From positions 1-46,674 of the IMG/VR virus record IMGVR_UViG_3300044695_000344: a stretch of DNA of 46,674 nucleotides; one strand, 5' to 3'. The notes beneath the pieces were generated by a model that ran no database searches, was not told the DNA's origin, and saw only the letters and a program-made list of their open reading frames with translations. This stretch comes from a virus. The position numbers were made by a program, and so were the translations under genes. This document shows positions 1 to 14,224 of the stretch, in pieces (positions within the stretch are counted from its first letter, which is position 1; each line of letters begins with the position of its first letter).

Positions 1-774
1 CCCAAGCTGTTGCAGGTGATCTTCACCCGGATGATGCTGGAGCGTATGGCTGGTGACGAGCCTCTGCCCACGGGCGCGGACGGTACTAAGTCCATCGTGT
101 TTGCAACATCTAACAACGCAAGCGACGGTGTGGGTGACTCCATGCTGGCCCATGCTGGTAACCGTGTGTGCATCATGCGTATGGCGAAGCCCAGCCCGAA
201 CGAGTGGTTGCAATGGGCATCGGAGAGCGGTATCTCTCGGGTCATCCGTGCGTGGGTCGCTATGTTCCCGCGCAGTCTCGCGTCGTACACCGAGGGCGAA
301 GACCAGAAGGACAACCCCTACATCTTCAAGCCTTCGATGACGAGTCTCTCATTCGTCTCGCCGCGCTCGTTGGCAAAAGCGGATGTGATCGTGCGTAACC
401 GGGACAAGATGACGGACAACGCTGTGAAGGTGGCGCTGGCTGGCACTATCGGTGCGGCGGCGGCAGGCGACATGGCGGCGTTCCTCTCGCTTGAGAAGTC
501 TCTCACCGATGTGAAGGACATTATCAAATCGCCCGAGTCCATCCCTGTGCCTACGGACATTAGCGCGCAGTTGATGATTATGTTTCAGGCGGTGGATGTT
601 CTCGCCACGCAGGACGAGTTGACCAAGTTCATGCAGTTCGTGGAGCGCATCCCTTCCAGCGAGGTTCAGGCTGTGTTCTTCACCATGATGATGCGTAACC
701 CCAAGGCGCTTCGCTTGGCGCGGAACAACCTCAAGATCGCAGAGTGGGCCAAGAACAACCACGAGATGTTCTGA
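1..774 (+). CDS. MoxR-like AAA+ ATPase, C-terminal part (cut by window edge)
   Basis: The reading frame is open from the first base, so the gene starts before the window and only its last 258 or so codons are visible; the TTG at 10 is unlikely to be the true start. Near the left edge the segment IVFATSNNASDG looks like the sensor-1 strand of an AAA+ module, followed by the GNRVCIMRM region that in MoxR-type ATPases precedes the helical lid. Walker A and B would lie outside the window. The next gene encodes a metallopeptidase/VWA protein, and MoxR ATPases are classically paired with VWA proteins, which supports the family call. The C-terminal 120 residues are helical and not recognised. Role inferred: ATP-driven remodelling of host or phage complexes together with the VWA partner. 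Confidence 0.65.
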   Translation, partial: PKLLQVIFTRMMLERMAGDEPLPTGADGTKSIVFATSNNASDGVGDSMLAHAGNRVCIMRMAKPSPNEWLQWASESGISRVIRAWVAMFPRSLASYTEGEDQKDNPYIFKPSMTSLSFVSPRSLAKADVIVRNRDKMTDNAVKVALAGTIGAAAAGDMAAFLSLEKSLTDVKDIIKSPESIPVPTDISAQLMIMFQAVDVLATQDELTKFMQFVERIPSSEVQAVFFTMMMRNPKALRLARNNLKIAEWAKNNHEMF

Positions 775-785
775 GCAAGTAACAG

Positions 786-805
786 CCCACGGCCTCGTGG
801 GTTTC
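786..805 (+). terminator. Stem-loop with short T-run between ATPase and VWA genes
   Basis: CCCAC (786-790) and GTGGG (797-801) form a 5-bp GC-rich stem around the loop GGCCTC, followed by TTTCT. It lies 12 bases after the ATPase stop and about 12 bases before the ribosome binding site of the next gene. The stem is short, so it is a weak or partial terminator at best. The inner CCCAC...CTCGTGGG pattern recurs in the larger hairpin at 5872-5909. Confidence 0.4.
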
Positions 806-825
806 TATTCAACCAAGGAGAAAGT

Positions 826-2157
826 ATGTCTAAGCAAGAGACCCGGATCAAACGCGCTCATGTGGCGCTGATGAAGCACCCAGAGACTGCCCTGTTCTCG
901 GGCGTGATGCTCATGGGCGAGACCACGGTAGAGGATCGGCAGTTCACCGCGTACACCGACGGTGTGAACAAGCGGTACAGCAAGCCATTCCTCAATGGGA
1001 TCACCGACGAGAGCAAGGTGCGTGGCCTCATCCTGCACGAGAACCTGCACATCGCGCTCAAGCAGATTCCGTTCGGTAAGAGTATGTTCAAAGAGAACGC
1101 GAAGATGGCGAACCTCGCCGCTGACTTCGTGGTCAATGACATCATCGTCAACATCAAGGGGTGCATCGGCAACTCATCCGAGCGCATCGTGGCTCTGCCT
1201 GATGGTGGTGTGTATGACCCCATGTTCCACAACTGGTCGATGCGTGAGGTCTACAACTATCTCAAGCAACACGCCAAGCCCAAGCCCAAGCCCAAGAAGC
1301 AAAAGCCCCAACCGGGCAAGCCCTGCCCCAACGGACAGAGTGGTGGCGGTGATGAGCAAGATAGCGACCCACAGGGGGGTGGGGAGCAAGGTGGGCAGGA
1401 GCAGGAGGAGTGGGACACCGTGGAGGTCAATGGGAAGGTGTATGACATTTCCCAGCAAGACGAGCACGACTTCGGCGAGATGCTCGACGGAATGACTCAC
1501 GAGCAAGTCAAGGAGATCAACGACGCGATAGATAAAGCTCTACGCGAGGGTGGGATGCTAGCTGGGCGGATGGGGGCCAAGATGCCCCGCGCCATTAGCG
1601 ACTTGCTTGAGCCAAAGGTGGATTGGCGCGATGCGTTGCGTGACTTCGTGAGTGCCTCTGTCAAGGGCAAGGACGAGTTCACTTGGCGTCGCCTCAACAA
1701 GCGTCACATGGCTAATGACATTTATCTGCCGAGCGTGGAGAACGAGACCATCGGCGAGATTGTTGTGGCTATCGACACTTCGGGTTCCATCGGTGGCAAG
1801 GAGCTTACCGAGTTCGCCTCGGAACTGGCATCTATTTGCGACCTTTGCTCTCCCGACAAGGTGCGGGTTCTGTGGTGGGACACGGCTGTGCATGGTGAGC
1901 AAGTGTTCCAGAGCGACTACCAGAACATTGCTGGGTTGCTCAAGCCGCTGGGCGGTGGTGGTACTCATGTCTCGTGTGTCTCCGAGTACATCAACAAGGA
2001 GAACATCAAGGCTGAGTGCGTCATCGTGTTCACCGATGGCTATGTCGAGGGGAACATCTCGTGGAACATCTCCAGCCCAACGCTGTGGATGATTACCTCC
2101 AACAAGAGGTTCGCCGCTCCGCAGGGGACCAAAGTTGTCTCTGTCGACAAAGACTAG
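826..2157 (+). CDS. Metallopeptidase-like / von Willebrand factor A protein (DUF2201/COG3864 type)
   Basis: A 443-residue protein with a clear AAGGAGAAAGT ribosome binding site before the ATG. The N-terminal part carries HENLH (H71-E72-H75), the zinc-binding HExxH signature, followed by AADFVVND, matching the putative metallopeptidase domain of the DUF2201/COG3864 family. A low-complexity linker rich in KP, then G, Q and E (about residues 145-200) leads to a helical segment and a C-terminal VWA-like domain with the MIDAS motif DTSGS (D317-S321) and a later FTDGYVEG segment. This domain order is typical of proteins encoded next to MoxR ATPases, and the ATPase lies immediately upstream. A chaperone or protease-like action on bound targets is inferred; substrate unknown. 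Confidence 0.75.
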   Translation: MSKQETRIKRAHVALMKHPETALFSGVMLMGETTVEDRQFTAYTDGVNKRYSKPFLNGITDESKVRGLILHENLHIALKQIPFGKSMFKENAKMANLAADFVVNDIIVNIKGCIGNSSERIVALPDGGVYDPMFHNWSMREVYNYLKQHAKPKPKPKKQKPQPGKPCPNGQSGGGDEQDSDPQGGGEQGGQEQEEWDTVEVNGKVYDISQQDEHDFGEMLDGMTHEQVKEINDAIDKALREGGMLAGRMGAKMPRAISDLLEPKVDWRDALRDFVSASVKGKDEFTWRRLNKRHMANDIYLPSVENETIGEIVVAIDTSGSIGGKELTEFASELASICDLCSPDKVRVLWWDTAVHGEQVFQSDYQNIAGLLKPLGGGGTHVSCVSEYINKENIKAECVIVFTDGYVEGNISWNISSPTLWMITSNKRFAAPQGTKVVSVDKD

Positions 2158-2176
2158 GATTCTCATAGGCAAGGCT

Positions 2177-2452
2177 ATGGAGGTCCCTCGGGTCCTCAGA
2201 ATCCAAACCTACATTGAGATTAGGTCCAAGCCCATTGCGTTTGCATCGGGCGTGGAGAACTACCGCATGACGACGACCATCGAACGACACCGCTTTTCGA
2301 AAGAGATAGCCGAGGAACTCTTGCTTGACGAGGGTGGCGATGGTGCGTACTTCTATTGCGTCCAAAGATTGGCAAGAGGCACAGAGAACGATAAGTTGTG
2401 GCGTGATGTATTAACTTGGTTGGATGAACTTAAAGGAGAAAGTAATGTCTAA
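2177..2452 (+). CDS. Hypothetical protein
   Basis: A 91-residue acidic protein that I do not recognise. The ATG at 2177 is preferred; a TTG at 2135 in the same frame would overlap the VWA gene by 23 bases. The sequence alternates short strands (RIQTYIEIRSK) with a C-terminal helix (KLWRDVLTWLDEL). Its stop overlaps the start of the next gene by eight bases, so the two are probably translationally coupled. Context: the run of small proteins downstream of the ATPase/VWA pair. No functional motif seen. Confidence 0.6.
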   Translation: MEVPRVLRIQTYIEIRSKPIAFASGVENYRMTTTIERHRFSKEIAEELLLDEGGDGAYFYCVQRLARGTENDKLWRDVLTWLDELKGESNV

Positions 2453-3467
2453 CTTTTCGTACGAGAGACTTTCGCGCATTGCGAATAGCGCCCCACCCTA
2501 CCGTGGGACGACAGATAGGTTCCCGCTGTACACCCGCAGGGAGAACACCAAGTACTTCTTTGCCCGACAGGAGAATGGGCAGACGGTGTTCGACCTCATC
2601 TACGGCAATCGTTGGGAGAACATCCATATCACGAAGGAGCAATACGATGCGTTCCCTCCGCGCAAGCAGAACGAGACGATTGTGAACTCGGACGGTTCGT
2701 ACATTCACTATGTACGCAAGGTCAATCGCTTGGCGACGGTGTACCCCGGGGATACGACCGCATCTTATGGCGATGGCGTGTTGGAGTTCAACGCCAAGCA
2801 CTACGGACAGGGCGAGAGGAAGTTCCTCAGCGATGGTATGCAAGGATGGTTCTCTACAGAGTCACGCAGGGGTGGGATGACATACAACTACCGTGTTGGA
2901 GGCAAGCGCCAAACGCATCCCATCTATCGGGGTATGCGGGTCAACGCCCGGACGATGGAACCCATCGAATCCTACGAGGTGCTGGTCAATCGCGTGGATC
3001 GCAAAGCGTCGAAGGAGCTGATGAAGCGGTACGAGCATTTCCTAACAGTATCTGAGGTGATGCTCAAGTCTATGACGCTCGAGAACGTGGTCCTAGTCGC
3101 CTCGCAACTCGTGGAAGGATCGCCGCGCAAGTTCGGTGTCGATGAAGAGATGCTCAACAAATCGAATCAACTCATGAACACCGCGCCGCTTGATGCGTTC
3201 TTGTTCTACACGATGGGTCACGATCTGCGGCAACTGAAGTACATGGCACACGCGAATGACACAACGCGCTGGTGGTATGGCGAGAAGGAATCCAACGCGT
3301 ACGACAGGCTGTATCCAGCTACCAAGCGCAGGCTGATAAGGGATCTCTACGAGCGCAATCCGGGCATCTTCAAGCCCAAGTCATATGCGTCCGGTGAGAA
3401 GTATTCGTCGTGCATATGGGGCATGACGATCATGGTCAATGGCAAACAAGTGGAGCAGTACGAATGA
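2445..3467 (+). CDS. Hypothetical protein, 340 aa
   Basis: The start at 2445 is chosen because AAGGAG lies seven bases upstream; the in-frame ATG at 2424 has no such site. The protein is rich in Tyr and Arg, with a first half that looks mostly beta and a helical section around residues 190-260. No nuclease, P-loop or DNA-binding signature is visible. It overlaps the small gene before it by eight bases and the next gene by four (ATGA), so it belongs to one polycistronic unit with the ATPase/VWA pair. Function unknown. Confidence 0.7.
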   Translation: MSNFSYERLSRIANSAPPYRGTTDRFPLYTRRENTKYFFARQENGQTVFDLIYGNRWENIHITKEQYDAFPPRKQNETIVNSDGSYIHYVRKVNRLATVYPGDTTASYGDGVLEFNAKHYGQGERKFLSDGMQGWFSTESRRGGMTYNYRVGGKRQTHPIYRGMRVNARTMEPIESYEVLVNRVDRKASKELMKRYEHFLTVSEVMLKSMTLENVVLVASQLVEGSPRKFGVDEEMLNKSNQLMNTAPLDAFLFYTMGHDLRQLKYMAHANDTTRWWYGEKESNAYDRLYPATKRRLIRDLYERNPGIFKPKSYASGEKYSSCIWGMTIMVNGKQVEQYE

Positions 3468-3640
3468 ACATCAATGTAGAAGTGCGTGATGTGTATGGGC
3501 AGACGGTTTACTACCCGATGTGCGACAAGGCCAAGCTGTTCGCACAGATCGCGGGAACTAAGACTCTCACGCCCGATGTGCTGAGGAAGATCGAATTGCT
3601 CGGGTATGGCGTGACGGCTACCCGGATCGTAACTTTTTAA
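3464..3640 (+). CDS. Small hypothetical protein, 58 aa
   Basis: The ATG at 3464 overlaps the previous stop as ATGA, the usual coupling in this genome. The product starts MNINVEVRDVYG and ends in a strand pair (YGVTATRIVTF), a small alpha/beta protein without recognisable motif. It is followed within 12 bases by a well-spaced ribosome binding site and the next gene. Confidence 0.6.
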   Translation: MNINVEVRDVYGQTVYYPMCDKAKLFAQIAGTKTLTPDVLRKIELLGYGVTATRIVTF

Positions 3641-3651
3641 GGAGAGACGCA

Positions 3652-4614
3652 ATGAGCGTCGAAAGATTTTTTCTTGAAGGCTTCCGTGACGAGGCAGAGT
3701 ACGAGAGGCTGAAGCAGTCATCTGCGTATCCACTGGTGCGTGAACTTGAATTTAAGTTTGGCCTCAAAGTCATCCGCAGGGTAGGGCTGATTAGGTACGA
3801 AGGCTCGGACCTCTCCGATGTGTGGGTCATGGGTCACACCAACGGCATCGCTGTTGGCAAGGTATTCGTGTCCCCCGCGAGTAAAAACTCTGGCCCTGAC
3901 AAGGCCAATGAGTATTGCTATCGCTCCCCTTACTATGCCAAGGAGCGTGGCAGTTCACGAGAGGACAAGGAGACTATCCGTAGCGTGAAGGTCTCATCGT
4001 TGATAGCTACTCTCACTCGCCACAAAGTTGTGCCATCCCGAGCGGACATGGAGCAGAGGAAGGTCAAGCAAGTTAGAGCGGCGCAGGAGCAACTCAAGCG
4101 CGGTATCGGCGACAGCAACAAGCCTAACGAGCTTCACTCTAATGAGATTCATGCGTTGCTTCTCATGGCTCTAGGTAAAAGTCCTAATAGCGAGTGGGTG
4201 AAAGTGGACCAAAATAAATGTCAAACCATTCTTGACAAATATGAGGAAGCTGATAGAGTCAGGAAGGTCAAAGCTGAGGAGTCCCAGCGTATGTTCTTCA
4301 ATCCGTTCTGGATGATCGGTGTGGATGGATTTGGCGACTACATCATCGGCAAGTACAAGCTAGTAAAGGTTGCAGATGAAACCATCCAGTATGAAACAGT
4401 CGAGCCATTCAAACGCTATCGCTCCTACGAGTCTGTCCCGGAGCTTGTACCGCTGATGACTATGGTCAAGGTCGCATACGAGAACGAACCCCACAAGGCC
4501 GGGGTACTGCCCACCACGGACAAGTACGATCCAAACCTTGACTCGGTGTTCTTCTACAACACGAGTACCACCCACTACGATCATGTGTGGATGGTTACTT
4601 CATGCAACACTTGA
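3652..4614 (+). CDS. Hypothetical protein, 320 aa
   Basis: The ATG at 3652 follows AAGGAGAGACGCA, a strong ribosome binding site. The protein has an N-terminal alpha/beta part (to about residue 75), a basic region around 125-150 (MEQRKVKQVRAAQEQLKRG, possibly coiled coil) and a C-terminal part rich in aromatic residues. Similar composition and size to the 340-residue protein two genes upstream suggest a related role, but I see no shared motif. Base composition falls slightly toward AT around 4180-4400. Function unknown. Confidence 0.7.
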   Translation: MSVERFFLEGFRDEAEYERLKQSSAYPLVRELEFKFGLKVIRRVGLIRYEGSDLSDVWVMGHTNGIAVGKVFVSPASKNSGPDKANEYCYRSPYYAKERGSSREDKETIRSVKVSSLIATLTRHKVVPSRADMEQRKVKQVRAAQEQLKRGIGDSNKPNELHSNEIHALLLMALGKSPNSEWVKVDQNKCQTILDKYEEADRVRKVKAEESQRMFFNPFWMIGVDGFGDYIIGKYKLVKVADETIQYETVEPFKRYRSYESVPELVPLMTMVKVAYENEPHKAGVLPTTDKYDPNLDSVFFYNTSTTHYDHVWMVTSCNT

Positions 4615-4964
4615 TCGGACACCTAAGCCCTGTTGTCCATACGAAAAAGTGGGATCTCATACGGTTGCCATTACGCAAGCTAGGTGACCAGTACGCGGTC
4701 TATGTAGCCGATGGTCTGGTGCGGTACTACGACGAAGCCACATTGCCTGACACCCTCAAAACGAAGATGGCAATGATCCTCGCCGCATCGACCCACCGAC
4801 TGGAGAACGAATCACGGATGCAAAAGATGCTCATCTATACGAACCCAATGTCGAGAGACTTTGATGACATTGGCTGGCGCGTGAGTGAAACATATTTTTG
4901 CCTAGTGGTCGACAGAGACACACTCGCATCCCTCAAAGGAGAACAGCATGGCGCAAACGCCTGA
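4602..4964 (+). CDS. Hypothetical protein, 120 aa
   Basis: The ATG at 4602 (MQHLIGHLSPVVH) overlaps the upstream gene by 13 bases; a GTG at 4587 in frame would add five residues. The product mixes strands and a central helix (TLKTKMAMILAASTHRLENE) and shows no known motif. It overlaps the nuclease gene downstream by 17 bases, so it is likely co-translated with it. Confidence 0.6.
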   Translation: MQHLIGHLSPVVHTKKWDLIRLPLRKLGDQYAVYVADGLVRYYDEATLPDTLKTKMAMILAASTHRLENESRMQKMLIYTNPMSRDFDDIGWRVSETYFCLVVDRDTLASLKGEQHGANA

Positions 4965-5259
4965 AGGCAAGGTGAAGGACAAAATCAAGACGATGCTCAA
5001 TCAGTACGGTGTTTATTACACGATGCCGATGGGCACGGGCTACGGAAGCGCGGGGGTTCCTGACTTCCTATGTTGCGTCCCACCCCACGGTGGGTTCCTA
5101 GCTATCGAAGCAAAGGCCAGCGGTGGCGTGACCACGGCATTGCAAGAGAAACACATCAGAGAAATTACTGCGCGAGGTGGACGAGCGCTCGTGGTGAACG
5201 AGGACAAGTTCCCGATGCTAGAGGAAGTATTGAAAGAGATGGGGGGATCGCATGACTGA
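4948..5259 (+). CDS. VRR-NUC domain nuclease
   Basis: A 103-residue protein that is essentially a single VRR-NUC fold, a branch of the PD-(D/E)XK nucleases found as stand-alone phage proteins and in FAN1. Visible catalytic residues are D39 in AGVPDFL, E54 and K56 in LAIEAKAS, and Q66 in ALQEKHI, in the right order and spacing. The ATG at 4948 follows AAAGGAGAACAGC. In phages such enzymes are placed with replication and recombination genes and are thought to cut structured DNA; that role is inferred here. It overlaps its neighbours on both sides. Confidence 0.85.
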   Translation: MAQTPEGKVKDKIKTMLNQYGVYYTMPMGTGYGSAGVPDFLCCVPPHGGFLAIEAKASGGVTTALQEKHIREITARGGRALVVNEDKFPMLEEVLKEMGGSHD

Positions 5260-5464
5260 TGAGGACCGAAGCAACTTGCGTGACCTCCACGCAGGCTTTG
5301 CCATGATTGGATTAATTATGAAAGGAGAGGAACCGCACAACATCGCGATGATGGCGTATCTATACGCTGATGAGATGCAATCCGCACGGAACCTGCATGG
5401 GGCAGGGATCGTGTCTGTTAAACGCCAAACCAAAAAGGAGAAGGCAGATGAAAAGCAAACTTGA
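5252..5464 (+). CDS. Small hypothetical protein, 70 aa
   Basis: Starts at ATG 5252, eight bases before the nuclease stop, and ends inside the next gene. The first 45 residues look helical and fairly hydrophobic (GFAMIGLIMKGEEPHNIAMMAYLYADEM) but too polar for a membrane span; the tail is Lys-rich. Not recognised. Confidence 0.55.
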   Translation: MTDEDRSNLRDLHAGFAMIGLIMKGEEPHNIAMMAYLYADEMQSARNLHGAGIVSVKRQTKKEKADEKQT

Positions 5465-5849
5465 TTTGACCGTCGAAATGCTTGAGGTTGACCCTGAGCT
5501 TTCGTCAAAGACGCTGATGCGTAAGCTGGGCGTGACTCGCCCTTATGCGTACAACTTGCTGTCCTTGGCGCGCAAGAAGATGCGCGAAGCTGTAGAGGAG
5601 TTGGCTGAGAAGGTGGCTGGTGTCGCGCCTCCTGCGCCCCCTGTTCCCACGCCCGATATGGTCAATCATCCCGCCCACTACAAGACAGGCGGCATTGAGA
5701 CGATTGACTTCATCGAAGCCAAGAAGCTGAACTACCACCTTGGCAATGTCGTCAAGTACATCACCCGCGCAGACCACAAGGGCGACCGCCTTGAGAATCT
5801 GAAGAAGGCGCAATGGTATCTTGAGCGAGAGATCGCTCAGGCTAGCTAG
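5448..5849 (+). CDS. DUF3310 protein with N-terminal helix-turn-helix
   Basis: The ATG at 5448 follows AAGGAGAAGGCAG and gives 133 residues. The C-terminal half carries the DUF3310 signature seen in many phages: VNHPAHYK, then IETIDFIEAKKLNYHLGN, VVKYITRA and ENLKKAQWYLERE. The family has been loosely linked with nucleotide kinases but has no firmly shown activity. Residues 1-45 look like a helix-turn-helix (MRKLGVTRPYAYNLLSLARK), so this copy may be a DNA-binding fusion. A Pro/Ala-rich linker (VAPPAPPVPTP) joins the parts. It is the last gene before a strong hairpin, so it may close a transcription unit. Confidence 0.8.
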   Translation: MKSKLDLTVEMLEVDPELSSKTLMRKLGVTRPYAYNLLSLARKKMREAVEELAEKVAGVAPPAPPVPTPDMVNHPAHYKTGGIETIDFIEAKKLNYHLGNVVKYITRADHKGDRLENLKKAQWYLEREIAQAS

Positions 5850-5871
5850 ACTATCCCTCCCTTCACCCCCG

Positions 5872-5909
5872 CAACCTAGCGTCCCACCCCCTCGTGGGTC
5901 GCTAGGTTG
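5872..5909 (+). terminator. 16-bp stem-loop after DUF3310 gene
   Basis: Left arm 5872-5887 and right arm 5894-5909 are complementary over 16 bases with one T-T mismatch, around the loop CCCCTC. It is the most stable-looking hairpin on this arm. No T-run follows, so it may be a factor-dependent terminator, an RNA processing or 3'-end stabilising structure. The apical CCCAC/GTGGG part matches the hairpin at 786-801. Confidence 0.55.
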
Positions 5910-5940
5910 ATACCAGTTCCCCCTATTTAGAGGAATAGCC

Positions 5941-6297
5941 ATGCAAACTGGCACAGTCGTTTTACTCGCGCGGATGAAAGACCATCCTGAAGAATTCTTT
6001 GGTGCGGGGTCCCATCGCTGGGACCGTATCGTCTCCGATGCCATGCCGTACCTTCCCGCAGAGGACAAGGCCGCGCTTGAGGGCGCACTTAGCGAACTCC
6101 ATGTCAACAGGTTCAACGAGCGCGTACTCAAGCGCATAGCAGGTGAGGAGGATGCAACATCGTTCTTCGGCACGCTTCAGCCAGCAGAGCAGCAAATGAT
6201 GAACATTCAGAACTCTAATTGGGGTTCGGTGCTACCCGGTCAGGCCGTAACGCTAACTCAGGGTGGATGGGGTCCGCAAATAAAGTCTCAAACATGA
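5941..6297 (+). CDS. Hypothetical protein, 118 aa
   Basis: The ATG at 5941 follows AGAGGAATAGCC and is the first gene after the large hairpin. The product has an acidic, helical N-terminal 75 residues and a Gly/Gln-rich tail ending in GGWGPQIKSQT. No motif recognised. It is coupled to the zinc-ribbon gene by an ATGA overlap. Confidence 0.6.
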   Translation: MQTGTVVLLARMKDHPEEFFGAGSHRWDRIVSDAMPYLPAEDKAALEGALSELHVNRFNERVLKRIAGEEDATSFFGTLQPAEQQMMNIQNSNWGSVLPGQAVTLTQGGWGPQIKSQT

Positions 6298-6464
6298 AGT
6301 GCCCCCTGTGTGGCGCTCCAACAGAAGTAAAACAAACGAGAGTCAAAAATGGTGTCCCCTACCGTCGACGCAACTGCTTCAACGACCACAGCTTCACTAC
6401 GAAAGAAGTCCCGATCACAAAACCAAAACCAATCCAAAGACGCAAAGGTTCTGACTCAAGATGA
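6294..6464 (+). CDS. NrdR-like zinc-ribbon small protein
   Basis: A 56-residue protein starting in the ATGA overlap with the preceding stop. The N-terminal 34 residues resemble the zinc ribbon of the NrdR repressor: MKCPLCG, then the YRRRNC block and the HSFTTKE block, where NrdR has an RRRxEC...CxxRFTTxE arrangement. The first CxxC is intact; the second pair is reduced to one Cys and a nearby His (RNCFNDH), which could still complete a zinc site. The ATP-cone of true NrdR is missing, so it cannot be a full nucleotide-sensing repressor. The basic Lys/Pro tail suggests nucleic acid binding. Confidence 0.55.
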   Translation: MKCPLCGAPTEVKQTRVKNGVPYRRRNCFNDHSFTTKEVPITKPKPIQRRKGSDSR

Positions 6465-6558
6465 GCTTAGGCGATGGTGGCCCTTCACGCGCCTTGACCT
6501 CAATCGGTTCCCTAAAACACCCCACGAGCGCGAGAAAGCCGAACCCGCGCTTTTCTAA
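6349..6558 (+). CDS. Possible small protein overlapping the zinc-ribbon gene
   Basis: An open frame whose first half is out of frame inside the zinc-ribbon gene. The second half (LTQDELRRWWPFTRLDLNR, then FPKTPHEREKAEPALF) has GC-rich third positions like real genes here and fills 6465-6572, which would otherwise be empty. The ATG at 6349 gives 69 residues but lacks a good ribosome binding site, so either the real start is nonstandard and further in, or the segment is reached by frameshifting from the zinc-ribbon frame. The alternative frame from 6461 gives Ser/Arg-rich text typical of noncoding frames. Confidence 0.4.
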   Translation: MVSPTVDATASTTTASLRKKSRSQNQNQSKDAKVLTQDELRRWWPFTRLDLNRFPKTPHEREKAEPALF

Positions 6559-6572
6559 AACAGGAGAGAAAG

Positions 6573-6692
6573 ATGGAATTCATTCTTGGAATCATCATCG
6601 GCCTTGCCGTTGGCGGCTTGCTGGTACACCTAGCGCACGAGTACTTCGATGCCATGCTTTCGAAGGACGAGGAGATGACCGATGCCAACTGA
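6573..6692 (+). CDS. Very small single-span membrane protein, 39 aa
   Basis: An ATG at 6573 preceded by AGGAGAGAAAG opens a 39-codon frame. Residues 2-19 (EFILGIIIGLAVGGLLVH) form one clear hydrophobic span with a GxxxG-like pattern, followed by an acidic tail. The gene overlaps the next start by 11 bases. The good ribosome binding site and the membrane segment support expression. Such peptides can affect the host membrane, but the role is unknown. Confidence 0.6.
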   Translation: MEFILGIIIGLAVGGLLVHLAHEYFDAMLSKDEEMTDAN

Positions 6693-6927
6693 GAGAGAGC
6701 TACTGGCCTTGTGCCTCAAGTGGATACAGCACCCGCAGGGTGACGCGTTCGACAAAGCAATGCTTATCGAAGCTGTGCAGGCCAAGCTAGCACCGCGCCC
6801 GTGGGTGGGACTGACGGAGGATGAGATAGCGCAAGCCATGTACAGAGCCGACGCTATCGTTACCGGCCCCATGCAATTTAAATTTGCCAGAGAACTTGAA
6901 GCCCTGTTGAAAGAAAAGAACCAATGA
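6682..6927 (+). CDS. Hypothetical protein, 81 aa
   Basis: Starts at ATG 6682 inside the end of the membrane peptide gene and ends in an ATGA overlap with the next. Predicted mostly helical; the central PWVGLTEDEIAQ segment resembles a motif I know from other phage hypothetical proteins without function. Likely a real, small cytoplasmic protein. Confidence 0.6.
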   Translation: MPTERELLALCLKWIQHPQGDAFDKAMLIEAVQAKLAPRPWVGLTEDEIAQAMYRADAIVTGPMQFKFARELEALLKEKNQ

Positions 6928-7559
6928 GCTACATCATCGCAAGCCTGCCGCCGCTCAAGTGTTTTGTGCGCCGTGAGTTTCTGTACAACCACACTAAGGG
7001 TCACGGTGAGCTAGAGCCCGCTATCTGGGTGAGCATCAAAGCTCTTCGAGGGCAAGTGTTCCGCATCGAATCCTTGTTGCCCAACTACGGCGCTCTATAC
7101 GACAAGTTGCCTCTTCATGCCTACGTTTGGCGCGAGGACTATGAAGGGGACTTGCCGATTGATGTTTTGCAACTGTGGGACTGCATGGGCTATCGATTTA
7201 CCGTCTGCGAAAAGATTGGTCTACGCAATCTCGGCGTGAAATTTCTTGGCAAAGACAGACAGTGGCACCACGGTAGGTATTTGTTCACTGTGGATTTCTG
7301 TGCTGATGAGCTTAGCGTAGACACGGGGTTCACGGAGCAGGCCGAGGAACATAAATCATTTAATTTTATTCGTTTGGACAACGGACAATTTGCTACGCAG
7401 CCGAACAACAGATGCTTGTGGTACGACCAGAGCTTGATTCCTGCGACGGTCAATTTCCCCGATTTTCAGGCGGCCAAGGATTTCTACACCGTGGACGGCA
7501 CTCGCAAATGGTCGGCAGGCGATGACTGGTTCTACGACATCAAAGAGAAAAACACATGA
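6924..7559 (+). CDS. Hypothetical protein, 211 aa
   Basis: Begins in the ATGA overlap at 6924 and ends in an overlap with the next gene. The protein is aromatic-rich and looks largely beta, with a DYEGDLPIDVLQLWDCMGY block and HHGRYLFTVDFC in the middle. I associate similar sequences with conserved, uncharacterised phage proteins, but cannot name a family with certainty. Located directly upstream of the DNA polymerase pair. Confidence 0.65.
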   Translation: MSYIIASLPPLKCFVRREFLYNHTKGHGELEPAIWVSIKALRGQVFRIESLLPNYGALYDKLPLHAYVWREDYEGDLPIDVLQLWDCMGYRFTVCEKIGLRNLGVKFLGKDRQWHHGRYLFTVDFCADELSVDTGFTEQAEEHKSFNFIRLDNGQFATQPNNRCLWYDQSLIPATVNFPDFQAAKDFYTVDGTRKWSAGDDWFYDIKEKNT

Positions 7560-7813
7560 CAGCTAAGAAATGTAAATGCAACCACGACAGCCCCTTCATG
7601 TGGAAGCATAACCACAGTCCGTCTGTGTTCTTGCAAGACGCTCACTTCCGAGGCCATGGTGCAACCATGTCGCAGAGCCAGACCCAAGTGGTCGAGCGCA
7701 ACCGCGTTCAGGGTATTGCTTTCGGCACCATCCCCAATCTGTCGAACAAAACGCAGGCCGTCATCAATGTGCGTCAGTTCACCGTCTACTCCAAGGCAGG
7801 CAAGGTTCTATGA
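7556..7813 (+). CDS. Small hypothetical protein, 85 aa
   Basis: Overlaps both neighbours by four bases (ATGA type). The N-terminus is rich in Cys and His (KKCKCNHDSPFMWKHNH), which could bind a metal, though the spacing does not match a known zinc finger. The C-terminal half looks like a short beta protein. Translationally coupled to the DNA polymerase, so possibly an accessory factor; this is inference from position only. Confidence 0.6.
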   Translation: MTAKKCKCNHDSPFMWKHNHSPSVFLQDAHFRGHGATMSQSQTQVVERNRVQGIAFGTIPNLSNKTQAVINVRQFTVYSKAGKVL

Positions 7814-9681
7814 GCCTAATCACTCTCGACTTTGAGACCTACTACGACAACAAGATCAAGCTGGGTTTCAAGTACCAGACGACCGAGGAGTATGTGCGGG
7901 ACTCGCGGTTTGAAGTTGTTGGCGTTGGTGTGAAGATCGACGACGAGCCGGAGACTTGGTTCTCGGGGACGCATGATGAGATCAAAGAACATCTGCTCAA
8001 GATTGACTGGAGCCGGGCGGCCGTACTGTGTCACAACACGCTGTTCGACGGATGCATTCTTAGCTGGCACTTCGATATCAAGCCTGCCTTCTTGTTCGAC
8101 ACTCTCAGCATGGCGCGTGCGTTGCACGGTGTGGAGGTGGGCGGGTCGCTGGCTAAGTTGGCAGAGCGATATGAGCTTGGCAAGAAGGGCGATGAAGTGG
8201 TTGCCGCTGAAGGCAAGAGCCGTAAAGACTTTGCGCCTGCGGACCTAGCGCAGTATGGTGAGTACTGCAAGAACGATGTGGACCTTACCTTTAGGCTCTT
8301 CCAAAGATTGTCGAGCGCGTTTCCAGAAGAAGAGTTTGAACTCATCGACATGACACTACGCATGTTCACCGAGCCTGTGTTCGAAGTCGATGACGCGCTA
8401 CTACACGAACGCCTTGCCGAAGTGCAGGCGGAGAAGAGCGAGTTGCTCAGGAGCTTGATGGAGAAACTCAAGTGCGACACCGAGGAGGCGGTACGCAAGA
8501 AGCTGGCTAGCAACAAGCAGTTCGCCAATATCCTCAAAGACAACGGTATCGACCCGCCCATGAAGGTCAGTAAGACCACGGGTAAGGACACCTACGCACT
8601 GGCTAAAAACGATGAAGGGTTCTTGGCGCTGACGGAACTGGAGGACTCGTTCATCCAGCAACTGTGCGCTGTGCGGCTGGGCACGAAGTCCACCATCGAA
8701 GAGTCTCGTATCGAACGGTTCATCGACATAGGCAAGCGCAACGAGGGCAAGCTGCCCATCCCGCTCAAGTACTACGGCGCACACACCGGGCGCTGGGCTG
8801 GCGTGGACAAGGTTAACTTCCAGAACCTGCCGAGCCGGGACAAGAAAAAGAAGGCGCTCAAGAACGCAGTCGTAGCCCCCGAGGGGCACATCGTCATCAA
8901 CTGTGACTCCTCTCAGATTGAGGCACGCATACTTGTTTGGCTGGCGGGGCAGGAGGATGTGGTTGAGCAGTTCCGCAAGGGAGAGGATGTGTACTCCATC
9001 TTCGCCTCCGAGGTCTACAACTATCCCGTGTCCAAGGCCAACCCCGTCGAGCGTTTCGTGGGCAAGACTTGCATCCTTGGGCTGGGCTACGGGACTGGCG
9101 CGTTAAAACTTCAGCACACGCTCAAGACAACTCCGCCGGGCGCCGTCGTTGACGACGAGGAAGCCAAGCGGATCGTGGGCGTGTACCGAGACAAGAACGA
9201 CAAGGTGATCGACTTGTGGAAGGAAGGGGACGATGTGATCGAGTCCCTTGCCGATTGGGGCAACACCAAGCCGTTCTATTACGGCAAAAACAAATGCCTC
9301 ATCATTGACAAGGAAGGTGTACATCTGCCCAATGGGTTGTACATCCGATACCCGGATCTAAAGTTAGACACGTCCGAAGCCAAGAGCAAGTATGTGTACA
9401 CGAGCCGCAAAGGGCCGGTGTCACTGTGGGGTGGGTCGCTGGTTGAGAACGTGGTGCAAGCCTTGGCGCGAATCGTCGTCGGTCAGCAGATGCTCAAGAT
9501 CAAAGAGCGATATGCGGTTAAGCTGACGGTCCACGATGCGGCGGTGGTCATCGTCCCGGAAGAGCAGAAGGACGAGGCGCTTGCCTACATCATTGAGTGC
9601 ATGTCTGTGCCACCGGCATGGGCTAGTGGTTTACCCGTAGCTTGCGAGGCAAAGTTTGCACAAAGCTACGGAGAGTGCTAG
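7810..9681 (+). CDS. Family A DNA polymerase with 3'-5' exonuclease domain
   Basis: 623 residues, the phage replicative polymerase. The N-terminal DnaQ-like exonuclease has Exo I LDFETYY (D7, E9), Exo II around CHNTLFDG and Exo III YGEYCKNDVD, so proofreading carboxylates appear present. The polymerase domain has TGRWAG and NFQNLPSR, motif A NCDSSQIEAR (D366), motif B R415-x3-K419-x7-Y427-G428 and motif C TVHDAAVV (H575, D576). Two deviations from the Pol I consensus are visible: Ser for the Tyr of DYSQIE and Ala for the Glu of HDE. The gene starts in an ATGA overlap with the preceding small gene. There is no 5'-3' exonuclease domain. Confidence 0.95.
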   Translation: MSLITLDFETYYDNKIKLGFKYQTTEEYVRDSRFEVVGVGVKIDDEPETWFSGTHDEIKEHLLKIDWSRAAVLCHNTLFDGCILSWHFDIKPAFLFDTLSMARALHGVEVGGSLAKLAERYELGKKGDEVVAAEGKSRKDFAPADLAQYGEYCKNDVDLTFRLFQRLSSAFPEEEFELIDMTLRMFTEPVFEVDDALLHERLAEVQAEKSELLRSLMEKLKCDTEEAVRKKLASNKQFANILKDNGIDPPMKVSKTTGKDTYALAKNDEGFLALTELEDSFIQQLCAVRLGTKSTIEESRIERFIDIGKRNEGKLPIPLKYYGAHTGRWAGVDKVNFQNLPSRDKKKKALKNAVVAPEGHIVINCDSSQIEARILVWLAGQEDVVEQFRKGEDVYSIFASEVYNYPVSKANPVERFVGKTCILGLGYGTGALKLQHTLKTTPPGAVVDDEEAKRIVGVYRDKNDKVIDLWKEGDDVIESLADWGNTKPFYYGKNKCLIIDKEGVHLPNGLYIRYPDLKLDTSEAKSKYVYTSRKGPVSLWGGSLVENVVQALARIVVGQQMLKIKERYAVKLTVHDAAVVIVPEEQKDEALAYIIECMSVPPAWASGLPVACEAKFAQSYGEC

Positions 9682-9684
9682 TAT
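9656..9684 (+). promoter_or_regulatory. Candidate sigma70-type promoter with extended -10
   Basis: TTGCAC (9656-9661), a 17-base spacer and TAGTAT (9679-9684) preceded by TGC form a plausible extended -10 promoter at the end of the polymerase gene, upstream of the nuclease. The -35 is poor (3 of 6). The -10 layout (TGN-TANTAT) matches the candidate at 29054-29082 on the other strand. Confidence 0.3.
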
Positions 9685-9708
9685 AAGTCAAACTTGATTG
9701 GACAATTT

Positions 9709-10365
9709 ATGAGTTTCAACTGGTCCTACTCGTCCCTCAAAGAGTACATCAACTGCCCCCGGCAGTACAACGAAGTGAAGATCCTCAAGAACTTCGTTAA
9801 GCGAGTCACTCATGAGATGACCTTTGGGACGCAGGTACACAAGTACTGCGAGGACTATGTTGGCGAGGGTAAACCCTTACCCAAGGACTACGAACACTTC
9901 CAGCCTGTGTTGGACGAATTGCTGGCTATCCCCGGTGAGCGTTACCCCGAGCATAGGATGGCGCTTGATGTGAAAGGCAACCCGTGCAGGTTTGGGGATG
10001 CGGACCGTTGGGTGCGAGGGATCGTTGACTTGCTGATCGTTGATGACGACCAAGGCTACATCATTGACTACAAGACAGGTAGCGACAAGTACCCTGACCC
10101 AAAACAATTGAAACTGATGGCGTTGATGGCATTCGCCCACTTCCCGCAGTTGCAGAAAATCAAAGCGGGGCTGTTGTTCATCACGCGCAACAGCTTCGTC
10201 GATGAGTCCTACACCCGAGAGCAGATCGCTGAACTATGGGACAACTTCCGGCCTGACCTTTTGCGGCTGGGGTCGTCTATGGAGACGGATGTATGGAACC
10301 CGAACCCAACCCCGCTGTGCGGTTGGTGCCCCGTAAAAACGTGCGAATTCTATAAGGACAGATGA
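9709..10365 (+). CDS. PD-(D/E)XK nuclease, Cas4/RecB-like with probable Fe-S cluster
   Basis: The ATG at 9709 is preferred over a TTG at 9694; neither has a strong ribosome binding site. The protein (218 aa) has the family order: SYSSLKEYINCPRQY, the FGTQVHKYCEDY helix, then the active site GIVDLL (D107) and IIDYKTG (D120, K122), then the QLKLMA helix. Four cysteines, C16 near the N-terminus and C204, C207 and C212 in PLCGWCPVKTC, match the arrangement that holds a 4Fe-4S cluster in Cas4, AddB and related nucleases. Expected role: DNA end processing or recombination with the polymerase and helicase. There are no cas genes nearby, so no CRISPR role is implied. Confidence 0.85.
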   Translation: MSFNWSYSSLKEYINCPRQYNEVKILKNFVKRVTHEMTFGTQVHKYCEDYVGEGKPLPKDYEHFQPVLDELLAIPGERYPEHRMALDVKGNPCRFGDADRWVRGIVDLLIVDDDQGYIIDYKTGSDKYPDPKQLKLMALMAFAHFPQLQKIKAGLLFITRNSFVDESYTREQIAELWDNFRPDLLRLGSSMETDVWNPNPTPLCGWCPVKTCEFYKDR

Positions 10366-10577
10366 TGAACACCGAGGTCGTGATCGACTATTCCTATCCG
10401 ATGATGATGACGGAGAAGGCGCTGAAAGAGGCCCATAATCACTTGCTGAACCACGACTACGACGACGCCATTGAGCAGTTGCTTGTCGCTATCGCAGAGG
10501 CTAGGCTGACACTCAACTCAGTCAAACACATGAAGGAGCAATCCCATGCCCTACGTAAACAAACCGAGGCCGTATAA
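10362..10577 (+). CDS. Small helical hypothetical protein, 71 aa
   Basis: Starts in an ATGATGA overlap with the nuclease stop. Residues 20-60 form a predicted pair of helices with a TPR-like look (ALKEAHNHLLNHDYDDAIEQ). Not recognised. Its end overlaps the HNH-like gene by 32 bases. Confidence 0.6.
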   Translation: MMNTEVVIDYSYPMMMTEKALKEAHNHLLNHDYDDAIEQLLVAIAEARLTLNSVKHMKEQSHALRKQTEAV

Positions 10578-10854
10578 AAAAGAGTACGAGCAGCAGAAGG
10601 CGCGAGGCGAACTTGATCGCCGCATGGAGCGCCAACGCGCACGAAGGAAGATAGACAAGCGTGATACTGGCACGGTGACGGAAGTATCTCCCGCTCGAAA
10701 GGGCAAGGATGTAGCGCATGTTGTTGCGCTTGACAAGGGCGGCATGAACAAAGACGGGCTACGCATCGTGTCGCCCTCAGCGAACCGCTCCTTCAGGCGT
10801 GACTCCAAGAGCAACCTCGTGTCTGAGACTAGCAAGCGGGAACGCAAGAAGTAA
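10546..10854 (+). CDS. HNH-like DNA-binding or endonuclease protein
   Basis: The ATG at 10546 follows AAGGAGCAATCCC. The first 45 residues are strongly basic (MERQRARRKIDKR). Residues 60-85 carry DVAHVVALDKGG and LRIVSPSANRSF, which resemble the HNH layout of DxxH, Gly-Gly, then N-L/R-x-V...NR found in phage HNH proteins. The core Asn region is imperfect, so catalysis is uncertain and it may only bind DNA. Placed between nuclease and helicase genes. It ends before a noncoding gap. Confidence 0.55.
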   Translation: MPYVNKPRPYKKEYEQQKARGELDRRMERQRARRKIDKRDTGTVTEVSPARKGKDVAHVVALDKGGMNKDGLRIVSPSANRSFRRDSKSNLVSETSKRERKK

Positions 10855-11013
10855 TCTTTGCTGTAAGGCATGAGTGGGCGGAGCCGGGGCAGTCGCAGTT
10901 AGCCACCCGGATTAACCATGTCAGTCAAGCGGCGCTGAACAACTTTCTCCGTGCTGGGCTTGACCGACTGACCCCCGTAAGGGGTCTCGTATATACACAG
11001 TGAAGGGTAGTTT
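10855..11013 (+). promoter_or_regulatory. 159-base noncoding gap with inverted repeats before helicase gene
   Basis: This is the longest gap in the left arm. GTCAAGC (10924-10930) and GCTTGAC (10958-10964) are complementary over 7 bases with a 27-base loop. GACCCC (10970-10975) and GGGGTC (10981-10986) are complementary around CGTAA. CTGACC (10968-10973), 16 bases, TATATA (10990-10995) is a weak promoter match that straddles the second inverted repeat, which could then be an operator. An origin or small RNA is possible but unsupported. Confidence 0.35.
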
Positions 11014-12570
11014 ATGAATGTGGTGGAGGACACAATTGTCCACATGCAGATACCATCGTCCGACTTGCAGTTCTTGGTCGGGCACATTGACAGGGTAGAG
11101 GTACTCAAGGACGACGGGACGACAGCCGAAGTCGCCGTGTATTGGGGCATCGAAGAGATGCAACGGCTTGTGAGACTCTATGGCGAAGCTCCAAGCCCGA
11201 TGGACAAGGACTACGACTGGCCCGGTCTCTACTCCCCCTTCGCTCACCAGAGAATCACCGCCTCATACCTAGCGTTGCGCGACCGTGCGTTTTGCTTCAA
11301 CGAGGCAGGCACAGGCAAGACTTCCTCCGTCATCTGGGCGGCTGACTACCTGATGAACCAAGGGCTGGTCAAGCGGGTGCTGGTCATCTGTCCGCTGTCC
11401 ATCATGTACTCCGCATGGCAGGCAGACATCTTCAAGACAGCGATGCATCGCACAGTCGGTGTGGCGCATGGCGCTACAGACAAACGGGTCAAGGTCATCA
11501 AGGGCAGCTACGAGTTCGTCATCATCAACTTCGATGGGGTGGGGACGGTAGCCGACGAGATTGGTAAAGTAGGGTTTGACCTTATTGTGATCGACGAGGC
11601 CAACGCCTATAAAACGGTTTCGACCAAACGCTGGAAAACCTTGGCAAAACTCATCAACCCTTCGACGCGCCTGTGGATGCTGACGGGGACACCCGCATCG
11701 CAATCCCCGCTGGATGCATACGGGCTAGCCAAGTTGGTCAACCCCGCTGGTGTGCCCAAGTTCTTCGGAGCATGGCGCGACAAGGTGATGATCTCTGTCT
11801 CGCGCTTCCAGTGGGCACCACGCAAGGACTCAAAGACAACCGTCTTCCAAGCTCTTCAGCCAGCGATCCGCTACGAGAAGGCCGACTGCCTAGACCTTCC
11901 CGAAGTCATGTACCAGACGCGCGAAGTGCCGCTGTCTCCGCAGGTCGAGCAGTACTACAAGCTCCTCAAGAAAGAGATGCTCATCAGCGCGGCTGGCGAA
12001 GAAATCAGCGCGGTCAATGCGGCGGCAATGCTGTCCAAGTTACTGCAACTGTCGGGCGGTGCAATCTATACCGACACCAAGGAAGTGGTGCAGTTCGACG
12101 CATCGCCACGGTTCAACGCGCTCATGGAAGTGCTGGACGAGACCGAGCACAAGGTCATCGTCTTTGTGCCGTACACCCACACCATCGAAATCGTATCCAA
12201 CTATCTCAGTCAGAAAGGAGTCACCAACGAAGTCATCAACGGAGCAGTATCAGCATCAGCGCGTTCGGACATCATCAACCGGTTCCAGACGCAAACAAAC
12301 CCACGAGTTCTAGTTATTCAACCACAAGCCGCATCGCATGGCGTGACGCTGACTGCCGCCAACACCGTCGTGTTCTGGTCGCCTGTCATGTCCGTAGAAA
12401 CTTATCTGCAATGCATCGCCCGTATCGACCGTGTCGGGCAAAAGAACAGCATGACAGTCGTCCACCTGCAAGGGTCGGAGGCCGAACGCAGAATCTACAC
12501 AATGCTTCAGAACAAGGTCGACATGCATGAGAGTCTGGTTGATCTGTACAAGCAGGAGTTAGGTCTATGA
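11014..12570 (+). CDS. SNF2-type superfamily 2 helicase
   Basis: 518 residues. Helicase core motifs in order: Q-like FAHQRITASYLA, Walker A AGTGKT (G99-T103), motif Ia VLVICPLSIMYSAW, motif II DEAN (194-197), motif III LTGTPAS, then in the second RecA fold KVIVFVPYTHTIEI, motif V HGVTLTAANTVVFW and motif VI ARIDRVGQKN (R470). The ARIxRxGQ form is characteristic of SNF2/Rad54-like enzymes, while DEAN replaces the usual DEAH. In phages these are thought to remodel forks or displace proteins from DNA. The ATG at 11014 lies after AGGGTAGTTT. It ends in an ATGA overlap with the next gene. Confidence 0.92.
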   Translation: MNVVEDTIVHMQIPSSDLQFLVGHIDRVEVLKDDGTTAEVAVYWGIEEMQRLVRLYGEAPSPMDKDYDWPGLYSPFAHQRITASYLALRDRAFCFNEAGTGKTSSVIWAADYLMNQGLVKRVLVICPLSIMYSAWQADIFKTAMHRTVGVAHGATDKRVKVIKGSYEFVIINFDGVGTVADEIGKVGFDLIVIDEANAYKTVSTKRWKTLAKLINPSTRLWMLTGTPASQSPLDAYGLAKLVNPAGVPKFFGAWRDKVMISVSRFQWAPRKDSKTTVFQALQPAIRYEKADCLDLPEVMYQTREVPLSPQVEQYYKLLKKEMLISAAGEEISAVNAAAMLSKLLQLSGGAIYTDTKEVVQFDASPRFNALMEVLDETEHKVIVFVPYTHTIEIVSNYLSQKGVTNEVINGAVSASARSDIINRFQTQTNPRVLVIQPQAASHGVTLTAANTVVFWSPVMSVETYLQCIARIDRVGQKNSMTVVHLQGSEAERRIYTMLQNKVDMHESLVDLYKQELGL

Positions 12571-12983
12571 GTGAAGAAACAGTCCAAGAAGTCAATCTTG
12601 AAGAGCTAGTCAAAACGTACCTGACGATCAGGAACGAACGAGACAGAATCGAGGCCGAGTGGAAGGTCGTCGATAGGGAACTGCATGCGGACATGCAGGC
12701 GCTGGAAAGTCAAATGCTCGTTGCTTGCAACGACAACAACGCCAGCAGTATCAGGACAGCAAGCGGCACTGTGATCCGCAAGCTTAACGAGCGATACACC
12801 GTGGCAGACGGGGACTCCTTCCGTCGGTTCGTCATGGAGAACGGAGTACCAGAGTTGTTTGAGCAACGCATTGCTCAGACAAACTTTAAAGAATTCATCG
12901 CCGAGCGCAAAGACACAAGTCTGCCGCCCGGTGTGAATGTGATGAGGGAATTCACGATTGTCGTGCGTAAACCCTCCAATTGA
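12567..12983 (+). CDS. Conserved-looking phage protein next to SSB, 138 aa
   Basis: Starts in the ATGA overlap with the helicase. The N-terminal 55 residues are a charged helix, likely coiled coil (TIRNERDRIEAEWKVVDREL); the C-terminal part is alpha/beta with SIRTASGTVIRK and PPGVNVMREFTIVVRK. The layout recalls Gp157- or Gam-like recombination accessory proteins, but I cannot confirm this by motif. Its position between helicase and putative single-strand binding protein suggests a role in replication or recombination. Confidence 0.65.
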   Translation: MSEETVQEVNLEELVKTYLTIRNERDRIEAEWKVVDRELHADMQALESQMLVACNDNNASSIRTASGTVIRKLNERYTVADGDSFRRFVMENGVPELFEQRIAQTNFKEFIAERKDTSLPPGVNVMREFTIVVRKPSN

Positions 12984-13011
12984 GTAAGTTCAGTCAACCA
13001 AGGAAACTTAA

Positions 13012-13872
13012 ATGAGCAACGATCTCGCAACCCTGTTCAGCGGCGCAGTGATGGCCCCCATTGAGGGTCTGGATGAAGACACCCTTGCGGTGGCAGGCGG
13101 CGCACGCCAGAACAAGCGCATCTCTATCAAGGGCGGTGTGTTCCGCAAGTACGCTGGCGGCAAGGAAATTGGCGCTATCGAAGATCGCCACATGAACGTG
13201 ATCTTCGTGAAGATGGCCCACAAAGCCTCGCGTATGTACTACGAGGGCGCGTACCAAGAAGGTCAGAAGGTCAGCCCCGTGTGCTGGTCAACCGACTCCG
13301 AGAAGCCCGATGCCGATGTGAAGAGCCCCTGCGCCGCATCCTGCGCCGACTGCCCCAAGTCCGTCAAGGGTTCTGGTTCGCAGGGCATGGGCACTGCCTG
13401 CCGCCTGTCTTGGCGTACCGCCGTGGTTCTGCCGAACGACCCGGCTGGTGATGTGATGCAGTTGGTCCTACCTGCTACCTCTGCCTTCGGCAAAGAGGAC
13501 AACGGTCGTTGGCCTTTCCGTCCGTACATCCAGCATCTCGCATCGCATAATGTGTCGGCTGGGCGCGTTATCACCCGCATGGCGTTTGACACCAAGTCTC
13601 CGACGCCCAAGGTGTTGTTCAGCCCCGCTGGCAAGGTGCCCGATGATGATCTGCAAGTGATCGCTCGGCAAGCCAAGAGCCCCGCCGCTGAGTCCGCTAT
13701 CAAGATGAACGTGTATCAGGCTGACAACTCTGGCGAAGCTGAGGTGGCTGCTCCTCAGAACGCACGGGAAGAAGTTGGCGATGTTCCTGAGCCGGTCAAG
13801 CGCGAGTCCACCAAGACTGCGGTTGACGAGAAGAACATCTCCGACGTGGTCAAGAAGTGGTCTAAGAAGTAA
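13012..13872 (+). CDS. Putative single-stranded DNA-binding protein with cysteine cluster
   Basis: 286 residues, ATG at 13012 after AAGGAAACTTAA. The central part carries a cysteine cluster C91, C107, C111, C114 and C130 (PVCWSTDSEKPDADVKSPC, then CADCPK, then the GMGTACR block), suited to zinc binding as in phage gp32-like proteins. It is followed by strands and, after residue 235, a disordered tail rich in Glu, Val and Lys. I recognise this cysteine pattern from phage proteins encoded among replication genes. The SSB assignment rests on that and on position next to helicase, primase and polymerase; it is an inference. High GC3 suggests strong expression. Confidence 0.6.
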   Translation: MSNDLATLFSGAVMAPIEGLDEDTLAVAGGARQNKRISIKGGVFRKYAGGKEIGAIEDRHMNVIFVKMAHKASRMYYEGAYQEGQKVSPVCWSTDSEKPDADVKSPCAASCADCPKSVKGSGSQGMGTACRLSWRTAVVLPNDPAGDVMQLVLPATSAFGKEDNGRWPFRPYIQHLASHNVSAGRVITRMAFDTKSPTPKVLFSPAGKVPDDDLQVIARQAKSPAAESAIKMNVYQADNSGEAEVAAPQNAREEVGDVPEPVKRESTKTAVDEKNISDVVKKWSKK

Positions 13873-13881
13873 GGACAGGGA

Positions 13882-14193: not shown

Positions 14194-14198
14194 TTCAA

Positions 14199-14214: not shown

Positions 14215-14224
14215 CCCATTTCCC

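Follow-up and report, generated by a model that had tools for sequence, protein, structure and literature searches.

A DUF3150-like third gene accompanies the AAA+ ATPase and metallopeptidase-like/VWA genes at the head of a phage replication arm

Genes at the head of the replication arm

The window, i.e. the whole stretch of DNA analysed, has 46,674 nt and corresponds to positions 1-46,674 of the IMG/VR record IMGVR_UViG_3300044695_000344. Its replication arm lies on the + strand (1-17094) and its structural genes on the - strand, from 17269 to the window end. A sequence-only reading had proposed that an AAA+ ATPase and a metallopeptidase/VWA protein lead the replication arm as a pair of the MoxR/VWA type. 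Both genes are indeed found at the start of this arm. Together with a third gene, located upstream and beyond the window, they form a trio, and the structural genes lie on the other strand. The features considered here are the following:

L004:35-967 (contig L004, beyond the window, upstream of the ATPase gene), DUF3150-like gene, 310 aa, assigned by profile comparison
1-774, + strand, AAA+ ATPase, residues 119-375 of 375 (PHROG_1297; completed from the identical contig L004)
826-2157, + strand, metallopeptidase-like/VWA protein, 443 aa, N4 gp25 family (PF13203, PF09967, PHROG_1314)
853-1737, + strand, DUF2201_N metallopeptidase-like domain, residues 10-304 (Pfam range)
1036-1050, + strand, HExxH motif HENLH, residues 71-75 (H71, E72 and H75 in 53/53 relatives)
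1759-2139, + strand, VWA-like domain, residues 312-438 (PF09967; structure comparison)
1774-1788, + strand, MIDAS motif DTSGS, residues 317-321, with T380 and D404 further on (invariant, 53 relatives)
2135-2452, + strand, small downstream gene, in 42/110 eligible loci, linked within the group only
2424-3467, + strand, downstream gene, 347 aa (95/107 loci)
3652-4614, + strand, downstream gene, 320 aa (88/103 loci)
4587-4964, + strand, downstream gene, 125 aa (84/95 loci)
4948-5259, + strand, VRR-NUC-like nuclease, 103 aa, start of the replication module (PF08774; 85/87 loci)

The frame at 1-774 (+) runs off the left edge of the window and encodes 257 aa, the C-terminal two thirds of the ATPase, which match the PHROG_1297 "ATPase" profile (E 1.8e-31, profile positions 115-352 of 356). 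The sequence-only reading had advised extending upstream to recover the Walker motifs. This was possible with the IMG/VR contig L004, which agrees with the window at every base of a 5,914-bp overlap (0 mismatches) and adds 1,375 bases upstream. The start of the ATPase gene (L004:1022-1375) supplies the 118 residues beyond the window edge and with them both Walker motifs, SEPGCGKT (Walker A, 32-39) and LLDE (Walker B, 111-114). The full ATPase of 375 aa matches PHROG_1297 with an E-value of 5.9e-47. Its sole Pfam match is AAA, below the cut-off (14.2 bits), and AAA_5 is matched by 11 of its 58 relatives (best 3.4e-7). K38, D113, E114, N156 and R173 are invariant across these 58 relatives, and the family has Walker A, Walker B, the sensor 1 Asn and a conserved Arg, as MoxR ATPases do. 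Compared with solved structures, the profile of homologous ATPases (A8) matched midasin (E 4.1e-19) as well as CbbQ and NorQ, each of which works with VWA domains or partners. Once the ATPase is completed from L004, the Walker motifs, sensor 1 and the pairing with a VWA gene in 100/100 loci support the assignment of the pair to the MoxR/VWA type.

The 443-aa protein contains both PF13203 DUF2201_N, a putative metallopeptidase (E 4.2e-22, 79.5 bits for a cut-off of 23.2), and the VWA-like PF09967 DUF2201 (E 3.1e-17, 63.3 bits for a cut-off of 26.4); its match to PHROG_1314 reaches 2.8e-82. A low-complexity linker (about residues 153-195) splits the DUF2201_N domain; its residues 167-191 have a pLDDT below 50. 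H71, E72 and H75, and the MIDAS residues D317, S319, S321, T380 and D404, are invariant in 53 relatives whose mean column identity is 55%, so that the HExxH (H71-E72-H75) and the MIDAS (D317-S321) had both been correctly read as intact. The predicted structure (pLDDT 78.7) confirms the VWA domain: VIA-align superposes it on I-domain/VWA structures with Z about 12 over 130-136 residues, and the Foldseek matches include chain 9qhd_G of NorQD. The list of VIA-align matches was filled by this VWA domain.

For the N-terminal domain, a profile search of the PDB with A4 gave nothing but linker-driven matches, and one with the profile A7 gave weak matches to the M48 family around the HExxH (E 0.0035). 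In M48 peptidases the third zinc ligand is the Glu of an ExxAD-type motif. N96 and D100 are invariant in the phage VWA family, as N-x-A-A-D, and the M48-like third-ligand position of DUF2201 is presumably this Asn (N96); the metallopeptidase domain may therefore be inactive, and an HExxH by itself does not prove catalysis. Counting nine residues on from H71 of the HExxH leads to residue 80 (1063-1065), a Q in 36 of the 53 relatives and an H in the other 17; the plasmid relatives, N4 and EcP1 have a His at this position.

Relatives of the VWA protein are present in 675 phage records. PHROG_1314 is labelled "HNH endonuclease", a name that this VWA protein also bears in many RefSeq phage records. 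Searches with N4 gp25 and with the 443-aa protein returned DUF2201 metallopeptidase/VWA matches and no match to an HNH model; the label is probably a propagated misannotation.

Other genes of the window were also inspected. A Schitoviridae (N4-like) identity was rejected for the phage, as no vRNAP match was found and, of the N4 genome between 8 and 45 kb, only gp25 was matched. The giant ORF at 17269-24585 (-, 2438 aa) was considered as a vRNAP and rejected for want of a tblastn match in the phage collection; its sole Pfam match is an LPD38 "large polyvalent protein" domain near the C-terminus. The product of 6924-7559 (+) matches PHROG_3704 "ferredoxin" over its full length (E 4.5e-75) and no Pfam family, and this name is doubtful. 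A Cas4-like exonuclease (9694-10365, +) and an SNF2-type helicase (11014-12570, +), both in the replication arm, have relatives in Pseudomonas phage Rollin, and the helicase has one in phage DSL-LC04 too.

The upstream gene is DUF3150-like

The 310-aa protein scores 10.5 bits with PF11348 DUF3150, below the cut-off of 24.9 bits; at E<=1, the same model matches 14 of the 48 members of its family (best 0.0016). As the Pfam cut-off is not reached we call it "DUF3150-like". By tblastn the 310-aa protein finds the annotated DUF3150 protein of cyanophage MinM2 (E 5e-8). We compared the profile of the phage 310-aa family (A3) with that of the DUF3150-like proteins of MinM2 and plasmids (A6): hhalign aligns them with a probability of 99.9 (E 3e-34). 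Searched against 8,518 ORFs, the A6 HMM recovers 142/144 phage third genes at E<1e-3, the best other ORF having an E-value of 0.81. When the predicted structure of the 310-aa protein (pLDDT 80.3) was compared with the viral models of BFVD, the top-ranking fold was that of a DUF3150 protein (E 2.6e-16); the PDB gave generic helical matches only (Foldseek best E 0.3; VIA Z at most 8.7 over 95 residues). Profile comparison thus argues strongly for homology of the third gene to DUF3150, below the Pfam cut-off. PF11348 matched no control genome when run over whole genomes; since it is too insensitive, A6 was used in its place.

The third components of the VMAP, iSTAND, FtsH and beta-propeller systems gave no significant match to the 310-aa family (VMAP-M1 appears in 2/48 members, best E 0.022). 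In our literature search, which may have missed subscription papers, DUF3150 is not mentioned in any paper found.

Linkage within the viral group

Scans of IMG/VR gave 554 stretches with VWA relatives and 263 with ATPase relatives; from either set the 80 best were examined, and linkage was counted over dereplicated loci with enough sequence. In 100/100 loci the VWA gene is immediately preceded by the ATPase gene, and in 120/120 the ATPase gene is immediately preceded by the DUF3150-like gene. Pairwise dN/dS values of 0.09-0.19 indicate purifying selection on all three genes. The distance matrices of their products correlate at 0.97 over 64 trios, a value to which shared group structure contributes. 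No terminator-like site was found on the + strand between the trio genes, in a scan that gave promoters and terminators in numbers equal to those in shuffled sequences.

The sequence-only reading had proposed to look for conservation of the neighbourhood 1-4964 in other phages, and to consider the downstream genes as clients or partners of the pair. Conserved linkage was found: the genes at 2424, 3652 and 4587 are present in most loci (95/107, 88/103 and 84/95 respectively). This linkage is however confined to the viral group of the window. HMMs of g2135, g2424, g3410, g3652 and g4587 matched none of 8,720 ORFs around AAA/VWA loci of other phages, plasmids and bacteria, so that downstream genes were rejected as members of the system outside this group. 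The syntenic run extends through the nuclease to PolA, and a homologue of the PHROG_236 "nucleotide kinase" is present in 61/61 loci; the downstream linkage fits plain operon conservation. The nuclease itself matches PF08774 slightly below the cut-off (E 7.7e-5) and has a relative in Rollin, without the trio. The pair does appear to belong to a multi-gene system, as had been suggested; across lineages, it is the DUF3150-like gene upstream, cut off by the window edge, that is conserved as its partner.

The trio in other phages, plasmids and bacteria

In MinM2 the order is ATPase, DUF3150, VWA, with small genes in between, and plasmids of Burkholderiales (Cupriavidus, Caballeronia) and of Rhodovastum have the ATPase, DUF3150-like and VWA genes contiguous. 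The order of the trio elsewhere (AAA, DUF3150, VWA) thus differs from that of the window group (DUF3150-like, ATPase, VWA). Profile comparison with these trio proteins gave E-values of 9.4e-48 for VWA and 6.9e-28 for the ATPase. The plasmid pCAR1 carries an AAA-DUF3150-VWA trio as well (DUF3150, E 8.3e-92); its ATPase is of the NorQ/CbbQ type (CbbQ_C, E 3.2e-8), and its VWA protein of 604 aa is annotated NorD and gives no match with the window VWA HMM. Miyakoshi et al. noted the MoxR and VWA genes of pCAR1 and suggested a role in transfer, ORF100-103 being conserved in R478, Rts1, SXT and R391 (PMC2642839). Transfer of SXT was lowered no more than 10-fold when bet, exo, s067, s068 and s070, which may or may not include trio genes, were deleted (PMC2791158).

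Among 80 loci of GTDB genomes fetched by VWA alone, 50 have the full trio, all in one order, and 24 have the ATPase and VWA genes with no DUF3150-like gene detected. Two "binary" loci, in Limnoglobus (L190:6939-7865 and L206:6936-7865), have a 308-aa ORF between the two genes; it reaches E 0.13-0.17 only with the DUF3150-like HMM and is possibly a more divergent third subunit. Searched alone, the DUF3150-like profile occurs in 16/200 genomes of the family of genome G003, where nearly all intact loci have both partners adjacent and on the same strand, the exceptions being fragments. Elsewhere it is rare, with 3/247 and 1/398 genomes in two phyla respectively. The trio thus occurs sporadically in bacterial genomes.

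With A6, no DUF3150-like gene was found in the whole records of N4, EcP1, phiFa, S-TIM5, RaK2 and V18, MinM2 and two plasmids serving as positive controls. The N4-like and jumbo phages examined carry the pair only, so the third gene is not universally needed. In the tree of VWA proteins the window group forms one clade (100*), whose position relative to the binary and ternary relatives has poor support. The DUF3150 label switches 6 times on this tree; given the poor support and these 6 changes, gain and loss of the DUF3150 gene are indistinguishable.

The genome of the window is a mosaic: its replication arm has 7 genes in common with Rollin and its structural arm 11 virion genes in common with DSL-LC04. 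Neither Rollin nor DSL-LC04 has a DUF3150-like gene, an ATPase match or a VWA match; MinM2 has virion genes in common with the window, and the trio. Thus the trio is a separate cassette, obligatory to neither the replication nor the structural module. Sequence families, invariant motifs, linkage of the three genes in separate lineages despite altered gene order, and a similar pattern of divergence of the three proteins are what is observed for this cassette.

Discussion

We lean, at slightly better than even chances, towards the view that the three genes encode one ternary ATP-driven protein-remodelling machine, most likely acting early and not in virion assembly. Complex formation, ATPase and peptidase activity, timing and client are what we infer for it. 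The ATPase, presumably a member of the AAA+ clade of midasin, NorQ and CbbQ, would assemble into a ring on which the VWA domain would dock, its MIDAS metal holding a client peptide. The client would be held by the VWA domain while the ring pulls, a model drawn by analogy with NorQD, where the NorD VWA plugs the NorQ ring and the MIDAS is needed for client activation and not for NorQ binding (PMC9976466). The zincin-like N-terminal domain of the VWA protein would cut or position the client. The mainly helical DUF3150-like protein could be a dedicated third subunit, providing a scaffold or client specificity.

In the phage such a machine would act early, on replication or recombination proteins or on host proteins. 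An early role is favoured by the position in the replication arm, by several Schitoviridae in which the pair stands directly before helicase and polymerase, and by the presence of the trio on plasmids. The trio is not obligatory for the replication module, since Rollin shares 7 replication genes without it. More tentatively, and with the chances rather against it, the AAA+-DUF3150-VWA trio may represent a further class of MoxR-vWA ternary machine, common to lytic phages, cyanophages, conjugative plasmids/ICEs and some bacteria. Such a machine might remodel or cut an early target common to these mobile elements, in replication, recombination or establishment in a new cell.

A role in the virion, the pair acting as an assembly chaperone and maturation protease for capsid or tail proteins, is the alternative we take most seriously, though we hold it to be unlikely. 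It was proposed by Iyer et al. (2021) for the pair of group 2.2 jumbo phages, with a precedent in the tail assembly of an archaeal virus (PMC7824862). In cyanophage S-TIM5 (L175:2514-5149), Hsp20 directly precedes the pair and a virion/packaging gene follows it soon after, and MinM2 combines the trio with virion genes shared with the window; these two cases temper the preference for an early role. But the trio heads the replication arm and is read from the other strand than the structural genes, and conjugative plasmids, which make no virions, carry it. DSL-LC04, with 11 shared virion-arm genes, does without it. The occurrence of the trio on non-viral elements, and its absence from a phage whose virion arm is related, weaken the published guess. 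Metal insertion into a phage or host metalloenzyme, as by NorQD, seems to us very improbable: NorQD puts FeB into cNOR (PMC9976466; PMC13036017), and the pCAR1 trio associates a NorQ/CbbQ-type ATPase with a VWA protein annotated NorD, but the N-terminal domain of NorD is unlike the DUF2201 metallopeptidase domain and no metalloenzyme is linked across lineages.

The sequence-only reading had mentioned that VWA/AAA pairs also occur in conflict systems. We consider it improbable that the trio is one more MoxR-vWA ternary conflict system, turned against host defences or rival elements. Four such ternary systems are known, VMAP with a strict three-gene order (PMC7159879), and the sporadic distribution of the trio in bacteria (3/247, 1/398 and 16/200 genomes) and its presence on mobile elements would suit this role. 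No variable effector domains are seen on the VWA or the DUF3150-like protein, unlike in MoxR-vWA conflict systems, and PADLOC models matched neither the pair, nor the DUF3150-like protein, g2424 and g3652, save one marginal ATPase match (E 0.0076), which leaves the conflict idea without support. The trio is moreover near-universal in the checkable loci of the viral group, and conserved rather than fast-changing (dN/dS 0.09-0.19). That the genes at 2424, 3652 and 4587 serve the pair as dedicated clients or partners, the DUF3150-like gene being incidental, is harder still to credit. Within this viral group they are linked in 84-95 of about 100 loci, but around the AAA/VWA loci of other phages, of plasmids and of bacteria they have no relatives, and synteny runs on through unrelated replication genes, whereas the DUF3150-like gene stays adjacent across lineages despite changed order.

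The third gene, which travels with the pair across phages and conjugative elements, defines a complex to purify and a route to the client of the early-acting machine favoured here.

Comparison with known systems

The pair itself is already published, in jumbo phages (PMC7824862) and among the core genes of N4-like phages, where it appears as gp24/gp25 of N4 (PHROG_1297/PHROG_1314; PMC7650795); our literature search found no function for this N4-like core pair. In the viral group of the window, a large set of uncultured bacterial viruses, the pair is really a trio with a DUF3150-like third member. N4 gp24 and gp25 align with the window ATPase and VWA proteins; they are the same two families by direct homology, in the same order and in an early/replication region. 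N4 and EcP1 are however without the DUF3150-like gene, and the window phage is not a Schitovirus. The pair of the group 2.2 jumbo phages, for which virion assembly was proposed, has the same domain architecture, with the VWA fused to an N-terminal metallopeptidase (PMC7824862), and tblastn finds relatives in RaK2 and Munch; RaK2 differs by having no DUF3150-like gene.

The pCAR1 ORF101-103 form an AAA-DUF3150-VWA trio next to conjugation genes, but with a NorQ/CbbQ-type ATPase, a 604-aa NorD-like VWA protein and another gene order. The NorQ/NorD system (PMC9976466, PMC13036017) resembles the trio by its AAA+ ring with a VWA partner and its MIDAS architecture. It differs in having two components and cNOR as its client, and the N-terminal domain of NorD gave no match to DUF2201_N. 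Finally, the VMAP, iSTAND, FtsH and beta-propeller systems (PMC7159879) share with the trio an AAA+/vWA core accompanied by a dedicated third gene; compared with them, the trio of the window has a DUF3150-like third component, a metallopeptidase fused to the vWA and no effector domains seen.
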